Source of the DNA: Nereocystis luetkeana
Lineage: Eukaryota; Sar; Phaeophyceae; Laminariales; Laminariaceae
Direction of reading: 5' to 3'
Assembly (NCBI GenBank): GCA_031213475.1
Contig: JARUPZ010000017.1
Coordinates: forward strand, 10,681,087 to 10,745,086
Length of the DNA: 64,000 nt
Made by a program: the position numbers and the translations under genes. Below are positions 1-61,500 of this stretch, piece after piece. Numbering within the stretch: position 1 is the stretch's first letter; each line of letters begins with the position of its first letter. Below the pieces are notes generated by a model. That model did not search any database, was not told where the DNA came from, and worked only from the letters and a program-made list of their open reading frames with translations.

Positions 1-609
1 GCTGCTGCTGTGCAGACCCAGCCGCAAGACCAGCAGCAGCACAACAGCAGCAGCTGTACGTACGTCATCGCAGAAGACAACAACTTGCAGTATACACCCA
101 AATTACTGGGAGAACAGGACGCGTACTGTATGCGCATTATCGCACTCAATCCTGAGAACAGGCAGTGATTGAGATACTGCGGGTATGAGCAGTATCATAC
201 ACCTGATAACTGATACCTGGTACCTGGTACCTGATATCGATCGGCAATACAGAACAACCGCAAAGTACGACATGGGCAGTATTCTCATACCAATAATACC
301 GAAATATTCATGTTGGATATAGTATTGCGTGTAGCACACGCAGCAGTATACGTACATCAGCACAAAACTCCGTCATACAGCGAGTACTTGCAGTCTGAGC
401 AAGCAGTCTCCGAACCTTGATTACCTCCAGTAGTGCTCGCCGAAACAGCTGGGCGCGTTTCTTAACAGGGAATCGTACCCAGCCGAACATCATATCAAAT
501 TCCTGGAACGAAGGACCGTATATTTTAAGCGGGTCCGTATCTCCCATTTACTAGTAAATAAAGACCTCGCATCTGGACTGGATATGATTATTTTCTCAAA
601 GTGAAAAAC

Positions 610-992
610 GTCTGCTGTGTACGATATCCTCCGATGCACTTGATCGGTTTTTCTTATCGAACTCACAGCACCCGGCCGACTTGCCAACAACCTTCATTCA
701 ATTCGACCGGCGAAAACAAAGCTTTGTACGTACATATTCGAAGTAGAACACCTCTGAACTACTGTATACTGGTGCTGCTGCTGCTGCTGCTGCTGCTGTA
801 GTTGTTAGTACTGGTATTCCAACGTGCCTCACTCTGCAATAGTAGTGGAGAAAGTCCGAGCATGTACGGCCACCTGTACGATACCTTCCGATGTGATTGT
901 TTGTTTTTTCTTGTCGAACTATATATAACTACACTCGGCCGAATGCATACTCCCCAACAACCTTCATTCCATTCTACCGGCGATAACAGAAG
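610..992 (+). repeat. tandem duplication (about 270-base period)
   Basis: 610-722 and 876-992 share the order GTACGATA-CTTCCGATG, TTTTTCTT-TCGAACT, CGGCCGA, CCAACAACCTTCATTC and CCGGCGA. A (CTG)10 microsatellite (771-800) lies between them. Confidence 0.75.
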
Positions 993-58500: not shown

Positions 58501-61500
58501 AAGAGGCAACGGTACTGCAGTCGAGAGAGGTGTTCGGCCCGTACCGGTACCAACGTCACGGCAAAAAGAGTAACTAGGTTAGTCGCATTTTGTAAAGCAC
58601 CGACTGCATTCCAACTCAAGTAGTTCTGGGCATTTTCTCGGCGCCCATAAGGAGCCCCGTCAAGCCAGAAACATAGCCTCACGAGGCAAAAAAAAGGTAC
58701 AGGACCCCTACCGGGGCAGTCCCGTCAGTCAGATCTTGTTTGGACGAAAAACGGTACAGTAGTCATATCGTGGTCCTGTACAAAACCCCATTACCATCAC
58801 CATCACCATCACCATCACCATGACCATGACCATGACCATCACCATGACCATGATAAACACCTCTTAATCTCGATCTCCTTAACAGCAATCTCGTCTTGAC
58901 GCTCGGCGACCTTCTCCTCGTGCGCGCCCACCATCGCCCATGCCAGTTCCTCCTGCACAGACGCATAGCAAAGGCGGGGGAAGGGGAGAGAGGGGGCAGG
59001 CTCATTTGTTGCTTGCCTCAGTCATCATGTCATTGATCACGCGTCCCCTTCCTTCGAGACAGGGGGCGGAGAGTACTCATGCCATGCATGGTCGTAGTCG
59101 TACAACCATGGCGATAGACTTTCGCACCCATACAGCGTCAGGACGGAGACGGAGCACGTCGTGCTTTCACCGACCAGGTAGACATGGCTAGCGCCAAGCG
59201 CGAAGCGCCGTGAGGTGTTGGGCGAGTCGCATGAACGGCGAACTGCATGCCACTAAGCAGCAGCAACCCGTGCTAATGTTGCAACGGGAGCTATAGGTTC
59301 AATTGACACACGACACGAAACTGGAACGTGGAAGTGTGGTGAGCTCAAGCTTTATTTTTATCAATCCGCCGGAGGATAAAACACAAGACAATAAACAGAA
59401 ACATAAAACAAAGAACCGATTTTGAGGCGAGGGGGGGAAGGGGTGAGGCTGCGCAGTCAGAGTGCCAATAAGACGAAGGACAACGGTATGACAGAGCAAT
59501 GCAGAGCCCACCCACCCACCCATTTTTGGAGTGGGACAAATTCCTGCAGGAGCAACGGGGTCAACACCTTTACAACTAACCGCACCCTAGAAACACCTGG
59601 CACTAGTATGGGATGCTTTAGTCGGCAGCGAAACCTTTGGCACGCCGGACAGATCGCGATGTATCTATATCTACTGTATAGATCAGATAGATTATCTAGA
59701 TCATTAATATCCCAACCTCCTAAAAATAACGACAGGTATAGGATCTAGATGATGTAGATGATCTACTAATAGATGATCTATACGATGCAGATGATGTATC
59801 TGTTCAATGCGTGGTATATACCTTCCAACGATAAATCTTCTCTTGGAGCTTGTCCAGCGTTTGGTACTCTTTCCACTCCTCCTGAAGACCAACCATGACT
59901 TTTTGGTACCTGCAAAGACGTGGGGGCGGGAAAGGACCCGATTCAGCCGGCAGCCCAGCTAGCGCACGGGTAAAAACAAGCGACCAATCAACGCCACTGC
60001 AAGCGGTCAACCAACCGATTGGCCAACGAACAATAACCCCTCGACACGACACACCACAACACAACACAACAAAATACATAAACACACAACGCAGCATAAC
60101 GCAACACAACACAGCACAGCACCAACACCAACACGACGATACGATACGATACGATACGAAAGCCCGTTCCGTTCACGTTTCGTTTAATTCGGTGATGGCT
60201 CAGGCTAAGTAAGATCAACGCCACGGTTATGAGACCAAGGCCAAGATCAAGACCAACTGCAAGGCTACCGCTAAGACCAAGGCCAAGACCACAGCCGAGG
60301 TTAAGGCTTAGGTCGGCGCTAAGCCTAAAGCTACGGCTAGCACTAAGGCAGAGAGAGGCCAAAACGAAATTTTCCTCCTGGCTGGCACGCACTCGGGCAG
60401 CTGGTCAATGGCTTGGTGGTGGCCGATCCTCATCTCCGTGATCTTCTCGCCGGTTTCTTCGCAGGCCTGTTGGGCTCAACAGACCACGCGCGGGATCACA
60501 ACGTGAGAGGCCCGTGAGAGGGGAAAACATGACGATACATACAGAATTTACGAGTACAGCAAACGCCCACTGCGTACCATGGTTGGGAGACGGCACCACT
60601 ACCGTGGTTGGTGCCCGAGTTACAACGCAACAAGTCGCACGCACGGCGCAGGCGCGGCGTGATCGCACCCCAATTTGCTGGGCGGATGCTCAAGCTGCTC
60701 TTGCTTGGCCAGACCGCTCGAGAACAACAACAGCTATCCTTGTTTTGGTCGCTGTTGTCGCTGCTGTTTAGCGCTTGATGTTTTACACCGAAGGGGTGTG
60801 ACGCTCCATGTATGACACCGGGTCTAGGGCTTACGTGTAGGGTTGGGGTAAGAGTTAGCCGCCGGTGTAGGGGTCCATGAGAGGGACGCACCCCGCCACG
60901 ATGGTAAAGGTAGCTCGGAATCTGAATTGAGGCTCTTCACTTCAATAGTCTATAGGAGCTCTGTCCCACACACACGACCACCGAACGAAACAAAAAAAAA
61001 CAATTCGACCGAATCCCATGATTCTAGGCGTATAACAACGAGTGCTACTGTATTGTAAAACATCGATGTAATCCAAACGATAAGGAATACCGCTATGGGC
61101 CAAAATATAAGAACTATTTCGTGTGAATATTCATGTGTAAACCCTGACCCTCACATTCCGGGCCAGAGTGCCTTACTGGGTACCAGGTACCTCTTCAATG
61201 CCCTTAAGGACCCTCGACACTCAGAACGCATTTTACCAAAAAGTGTTAATAAAGACAGCAATCGTATCCCTACGATTATCGTGGCGCTGGATAGCGAGGG
61301 GAATGAACTGGTCTATTGGCGGGGCTTGCGTTTAGGGCTGGGGCTGTTAGCGTTATCGATAGCGCTACAGCAGGTGCCGGCCTCGAGGTCCGTGAGAGGG
61401 TCGCAGCAGCAACGACGTTTGGCGCGTCAGTGGCGTGATCCACACCCAAGATTTTACGGTTTCATGTACCACGAGAGAGAGAACGAGAGAGACGCTGCTG

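Follow-up and report, generated by a model that had tools for sequence, protein, structure and literature searches.

The stretch of DNA analysed here (the window) comprises 64,000 nt of the brown alga Nereocystis luetkeana (assembly GCA_031213475.1, contig JARUPZ010000017.1, positions 10,681,087 to 10,745,086) and contains numerous copies of a 9-base palindromic word, TACCAGGTA/TACCTGGTA. These copies are probably excision footprints left by some transposon that inserts at TA. Their form, TA-CC(A/T)GG-TA, is best read as the trace of a mariner- or Stowaway-like source with ends CCA...TGG. Excision footprints of TA-inserting elements are already known as a kind, and the new part is their scale in this genome: the literature listings searched, which lay mostly outside subscription journals, showed no report of a single footprint present ~182,000 times within one genome. 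Among the titles and abstract openings listed for the two forms of the word, none concerned transposons.

Exact matching recovered 24 copies of the word in the window, of which 13 read TACCAGGTA and 11 read TACCTGGTA on the forward strand. An earlier note on this DNA had counted about 23, and all 11 positions that it named were recovered; its estimate of less than one copy per 64 kb by chance agreed with 100 dinucleotide shuffles of the window (mean 0.47, maximum 2). As seven of the copies (36575–38741) belong to or border a single degenerate ATATGATACTACCAGRTA array and those at 214 and 221 overlap, the window contains approximately 17 independent places. In the array itself the word has seemingly been swept up in local tandem growth. 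A 264-kb sample, made up of the window plus 20 further 10-kb stretches, produced 93 copies against 2.5 predicted by a third-order Markov model, and another 50 kb of new sequence yielded 24. Loci L001–L008 are a non-random part of the sampled sequence since they were fetched around hits; L003, L004 and L006 overlap L002 and L005, and were excluded from most counts and included in the first BLAST search. Across the whole 465-Mb, 1987-contig assembly the exact count reached 91,240 forward and 91,155 reverse matches (182,395 in total, one per 2.55 kb), compared with 861 + 883 = 1,744 for a control consisting of the word read backwards. The genome-wide count proposed in the earlier note is therefore far above the control, by approximately 105-fold, and not near expectation.

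Comparison with paralogues shows that the word arose by insertion of 7 bp at a TA. In an all-against-all catalogue of insertions and deletions between paralogues, compiled blind to the word, CCAGGTA was the top 7-bp insertion, accounting for 9 of the 27 position bins for insertions of this size (a single insertion probably underlies two neighbouring bins in L018). Additionally, the flanks of 128 copies were joined at one TA and searched for ungapped paralogues. An empty counterpart was obtained for 13 of the 128, with TA at the junction in ten, GA in two and TG in one, so that the insertion typically stands between two TAs where relatives have a single TA. By context, six of the 13 pairs were located in family A of miniature inverted-repeat transposable elements (MITEs), all with TA, and four in ATATGATA arrays (TA, TA, TG and GA). 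The same pairs bear on the idea that the word pre-existed as the preferred target of some element and is no scar. Elements do at times adjoin it (MITE A at 7809 in the window; MITE C, a candidate source family described below, at L013:8379), but with plain TA in 10 of 13 word-free paralogues we regard this idea as scarcely credible.

MITE A also offered a view of repeated insertion at one position. The earlier note had described three MITE copies in which the word replaces a single TA. Taken as the copies at 26872, 45405 and 46946, all three are real; those at 26872 and 46946 show exactly the change from CCTA to CCTACCAGGTA, while 45405 is not a plain replacement of a single TA because a further 5 bp are present (TACCAGGTACCGTA). 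Altogether, 5 of 37 aligned MITE A copies were filled at this central TA (CCTATATATTT), the other two being L018:3040 and L028:7056, and two further copies were filled at another TA (L018:168 and L032:1973). On a tree of MITE A copies the five filled ones required five changes (bootstrap 5–95% range 5–5; shuffled mean 4.8), a result that favours recurrent insertion at a hot TA over the single shared ancestor about which the note had been concerned. This reading is suggestive only, since the forks of the tree are weak (the well-supported branches by themselves force one change) and all five scars have one orientation; some of the copies could share ancestry.

A target preference is visible in the sequence on either side of the word. 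At 76 isolated sites (copies less than 40 bp apart and window positions 36000–39000 omitted, no de-duplication), both flanks read outward displayed much the same preferences over ~8 bp on each side: A or G was favoured at position −1, where T had a frequency of 0.06 vs 0.19, followed by A 0.48 and T 0.12 at −6, A or T 0.86 at −7 and T 0.41 at −8. Some difference between the sides was seen at −2 (C 29 vs 13). Matrices for the held-out, k-mer and MITE C-end tests were built from de-duplicated sites. The held-out half of 79 such sites scored +0.68 ± 0.18 on a matrix from the other half, against −1.01 ± 0.02 for random TA and −0.76 ± 0.04 for other TA-N5-TA pairs, and the 24 copies from the additional 50 kb, nested ones included, scored +0.61 ± 0.25 vs −0.95. 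A preference that is symmetric about the insertion point is a mark of a dimeric transposase (DDE/D transposition), and is not expected from either slippage or a selected binding site.

Ten pairs of words shared a TA at 7-bp spacing, six in the same orientation (TACCAGGTACCAGGTA) and four in opposite orientations (TACCAGGTACCTGGTA and TACCTGGTACCAGGTA). A microsatellite-like process, such as slippage or templated repair, that makes and spreads CCAGGTA would be in keeping with the same-orientation majority, with the 7-bp tandems at window positions 201–236 and with the seven window copies at one tandem array. However, slippage should give the same orientation only, so the 6:4 division tells against it, as do the rarity of close neighbours (a distance of ≤ 20 bp in just 10 cases among 105 sites) and the flank signature, and we judge such a process very unlikely.

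Variants of the word behaved as decaying scars should, in that part of the target signature was present in them: four of five one-base variants scored between 0.05 and 0.40, with TACCAGATA at −0.39. Next to 105 exact copies there were 120 single mutants vs 58.4 expected, which implies that the scars are ~7% diverged per site and fairly young. Transitions contributed most of the excess (65 observed where 20.7 were expected), with a smaller share from transversions (55 where 37.7 were expected), and exact and decayed scars together perhaps amount to ~320,000 genome-wide. A functional site under selection (protein binding, origin or insulator) would agree with a palindromic and very abundant word and with 105 exact copies against a single-mutant excess of ~62. 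It is nevertheless very improbable, given that the word arises as a 7-bp TA insertion within unrelated repeats and that its one-base variants are in excess mostly through transitions, as in neutral decay.

Two origins had been suggested in the earlier note. A Tc1/mariner excision footprint fits the 7-bp insertion at TA, the symmetric preference, the nesting in both orientations and the existence of a candidate MITE with CCA ends; there is no need to invoke a very small inserting unit. On the footprint reading, a cut-and-paste element enters a TA and would duplicate it, as seen for MITE A. On exit the transposase would cut inside the element ends, in the manner of mariner and Stowaway excision, and so leave a few end bases beside each TA. 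With ends CCA...TGG, the host would join CCA to GG or CC to TGG, giving TA-CC(A/T)GG-TA; equivalently, two 3-nt CCA overhangs could pair, leaving an A:A mismatch in the middle to be resolved to A or T. Because such a scar would retain its TAs, later visits could place further scars 7 bp away in either orientation, the arrangement found in the nested pairs, and long activity may have accumulated the ~182,000 exact scars.

A second word served as a positive control. MITE A has ends TTACGG... and its insertion at TA was seen by comparing L001:826–929 with the empty L001:318. The word TATTAATA was counted 106 times on the two strands of the sample (53 places) against 13.1 counts expected, an 8-fold excess, and a filled and empty pair was found for it (window 15236 vs L001:1773). 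Its flanks (C.45 at −3, A.58 at −4, T.58 at −5) resemble those of MITE A insertions (C.47, A.47 and T.42 at the same positions, from 89 loose end matches of which some are not MITE A). TATTAATA is thus probably the TT+AA excision footprint of the resident MITE A, and its match to MITE A in end bases and target preference suggests that footprints are common in this genome.

Other words of the TA-x-TA type were also observed. TACGAGTA/TACTCGTA occurred 49 times vs 11.7 expected, with a TA insertion at L020:590 vs L015:666, and is a candidate footprint. TACAGTA was 2.8-fold enriched (129 vs 45), but its flanks did not show the target signature of CCAGG; it may therefore stem from another element. 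TACAGTA, TACGTA and TACCGTA were considered as trimmed products of the same break and rejected, the target signature being missing. TACCGGTA scored −0.61 ± 0.35 (n = 15) and TACCAGTA −0.18 ± 0.29 (n = 27); high target scores were obtained for TACCATGGTA (n = 3) and TACCAGGGTA (n = 6), on few sites.

A scan for pairs of terminal inverted repeats (TIRs) pointed to a 79-bp palindrome at L021:7425–7503 that has the termini CCACTCTGTTCCG and a TA on either side. The family that it represents, MITE C, consists of 79–83 bp palindromes with TIR CCACTCTGTCCGGAAATATAAGG (also given as CCACTCTGTCCGGAAATATAAGGACC; TIR pair CCACTCTGTCCGG). It is a candidate source since CCA ends would give CCWGG and since its target preference is shared in part with the scars. 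In 329 kb, a MITE C profile had 17 matching loci (E < 0.05), including window positions 56648–56726, ~61090–61171 and a partial copy near 3089; loose matches to the TIR numbered 13 vs 0–5 for 20 shuffled TIRs. Among 20 ends set by hand from the profile hits, with hits short of the model end omitted, 11 abutted TA, and the mean target score was +0.45 vs −0.93 for the TA background (p = 0.0046); 62 MITE A ends scored −1.41 on the scar matrix. TA was present on both sides in two of the eight copies with both ends listed.

Genome-wide, the MITE C TIR with A/T fixed at −8 was found 188 + 210 = 398 times vs 0 for the control. Judged by eye, about half of 100 listed end places among the 398 share the context TACTGGCA, which at four loci (L034–L037) is a shared repeat of ~300–600 bp carrying half a MITE C. 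From the 100 listed places 55 different flank strings were taken, and removal of 19 TACTGGCA-like ones (≥ 5/8 letters; a few unrelated sites were probably lost in this way) and of two near-duplicates left 34 distinct flanks. Their mean score was −0.07 vs −0.84 for background (p = 0.0034), with +0.65 for scars over the same positions, and agreement with the scars was good at −7 and −6 but absent at −1. The 182,395 exact copies of the word far exceed the 398 exact MITE C ends, as would be the case if the word were a self-propagating 7-bp unit, or if an enzyme added CCWGG at cut TAs without any transposon. We consider both exceedingly unlikely: no mechanism for copying a 7-bp unit is known to us, and, judging from TATTAATA, this genome probably has many ordinary MITE footprints.

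The chances seem to us about even that the source is MITE C and/or a close relative with the same ends, together with an unseen autonomous relative. Within the footprint reading, some other TA-inserting element, low-copy or extinct, is a serious possibility that we rate somewhat below even. The partial agreement of the MITE C flanks and the old appearance of MITE C copies speak for such an element, and by eye no element with TACCWGG ends recurred in the sample, in either the TIR-pair search or a listing of TACCWGG not followed by TA. Against it, MITE C is the single CC-ended, TA-flanked family noticed, and its sites outscore both random TA and MITE A. When 5-mers after TA were ranked by upstream score, CCTGG, TATAT and CCAGG came top, followed by AT-rich or MITE A-internal words, with no clear other end; a scan for large insertions returned MITE A at TA and no CC-ended element among the insertions listed.

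Several observations weigh against excision footprints, or against MITE C as their source. Just three of the 13 empty-site pairs came from other repeats (TA, TA and GA), a second filled and empty pair of MITE A (window 50788–50897 vs 45535) lacked a clean TA duplication, and Tc1/mariner footprints are usually given as 2–4 bp (PMC7913693). No Tc1-type transposase domain was found, with PF13358 in 0 of 30 candidates and PF01359 in 0 of 3, the control for PF01359 being silent as well; this absence carries little weight because introns and low conservation hamper such searches, a point made by the Ectocarpus authors (PMC12477816). Nine of the 20 MITE C ends were without TA, and the MITE C flanks matched the scars in part, T at −1 being undepleted (0.21, compared with 0.08 for the scars) and their mean score being lower than that of scars. 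MITE C copies also look old, many with several TIR changes, whereas the scars are fairly young. Finally, the five hot-site scars in MITE A all share one orientation, with CCAGG on the MITE sense strand.

Similarities with known systems were accompanied by clear differences. The canonical Sleeping Beauty/Tc1 footprint, TAC(A/T)GTA, is likewise palindromic, with A/T at its centre and a TA at each end, but it has 3 bp between the TAs where the present word has 5. The mariner element Mos1 has ends CCAGGTGTAC, which start with CCA; no element with ends of this type was seen by eye to recur in the sample. Sleeping Beauty transposase cuts 3 nt inside the element and produces 3-nt overhangs (PMC7827188). 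Footprints of Stowaway and the rice mariner-like Osmar elements resemble the present ones in having TA on both sides with TIR bases left behind (1–4 bp of TIR beside each TA for Stowaway/Osmar5) and in reinsertion at the TA of an old footprint (PMC1925063), and repair after Stowaway/Osmar excision in yeast is mainly by end joining (PMC4561436). They differ in that a handful of sites with varied footprints stand against ~182,000 copies of one footprint here. Set by eye against the Stowaway-like TIR CTCCCTCCGTCCC..ATAA, MITE C is a short palindromic element with its own TIR CCACTCTGTCCGGAAATATAAGG; the Ppmar2 TIR, TACTCCCTCCGTCCCAGTATAA (PMC6696609), was compared with it in the same way. Ectocarpus provides brown-alga parallels, where 17 Mariner-Tc1 families total nearly 12,000 copies and most of these are MITEs, TcMar-N1_Ec32 being one example; the words ‘footprint’ and ‘excision’ do not appear in the main text of that paper (PMC12477816).

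The features of the window are listed in Table 1. Outside these, an 88-bp tandem duplication was present at window positions 8726–8895, its two copies being 95% alike. An exon in L018 probably encodes part of a plastid triose-phosphate-type transporter, a function suggested by the Pfam domains of its relatives and by general background knowledge. Eight related proteins were found, the top-scoring one being a EukProt protein (84% identical); over 83% of the 80-residue query, identity was 95% with Undaria pinnatifida, 89% with Scytosiphon and 88% with Ectocarpus. These matches identify the host as a brown alga, and probably a kelp-like one.

Table 1. Copies of the 9-base word and associated MITEs in the window
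Feature	Position	Strand	Basis
Nested pair in one orientation: two copies that overlap, TACCTGGTACCTGGTA	214..229	-	word count, nesting test
TACCAGGTA	1297..1305	+	exact match
TACCAGGTA	2852..2860	+	exact match
Partial diverged MITE C copy	3089..3156	-	profile match, best E = 0.0003
TACCAGGTA	4731..4739	-	exact match
TACCAGGTA, directly outside MITE family A copy at 7820	7809..7817	-	exact match, MITE A alignment
TACCAGGTA	13996..14004	-	exact match
TACCAGGTA	14158..14166	-	exact match
TACCAGGTA	16635..16643	-	exact match
TACCAGGTA	17510..17518	+	exact match
MITE family A copy, central TA filled; probable footprint 26872–26880	26804..26930	-	alignment, empty-site test
Seven copies (36575, 36783, 37108, 37166, 37188, 38548, 38733) within and next to a degenerate ATATGATACTACCAGRTA array	36575..38741	.	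not independent evidence
TACCAGGTA adjoining CCCTGGTA	39987..39995	-	exact match
TACCAGGTA with TACCAGA before it; +14 nt vs repeat relative, equal to two 7-nt units	41581..41589	+	
MITE family A copy, TACCAGGTACCGTA at central TA (45405–45418): probable footprint and second 5-bp TA insertion	45357..45474	+	
MITE family A copy, central TA filled (46946–46954)	46898..47014	+	alignment, empty-site test
MITE C copy, 79 bp, ends CCACTTTGTCCCG.../...GGGACAAAGTCG; TA at right only; candidate source family	56648..56726	+	
TACCAGGTA	57881..57889	+	exact match
Diverged MITE C copy; TA at left only; ~10 bp left of probable footprint 61181	61090..61171	+	
TACCAGGTA	61181..61189	+	exact match

We tentatively propose, at slightly less than even confidence, that host repair joins the ends of one transposon uniformly, so that an identical 7 bp is left behind at every excision. 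The genome would then hold a near-complete and datable count of one family's jumps, in the hundreds of thousands and far above its surviving copies, and several families may leave words of their own (CCWGG, TTAA and perhaps CGAG). Scars of cut-and-paste elements are usually too short and too varied to be recognised, and rates of movement in lineages are seldom measurable. A uniform 9-base scar at ~180,000 places would, if this reading is true, make it possible to count jumps, to define target preference and hot spots and to estimate ages from sequence alone. It would also account for an excess of one word in the genome of a brown alga that otherwise lacks an explanation, and the scars would be usable as neutral markers between strains.

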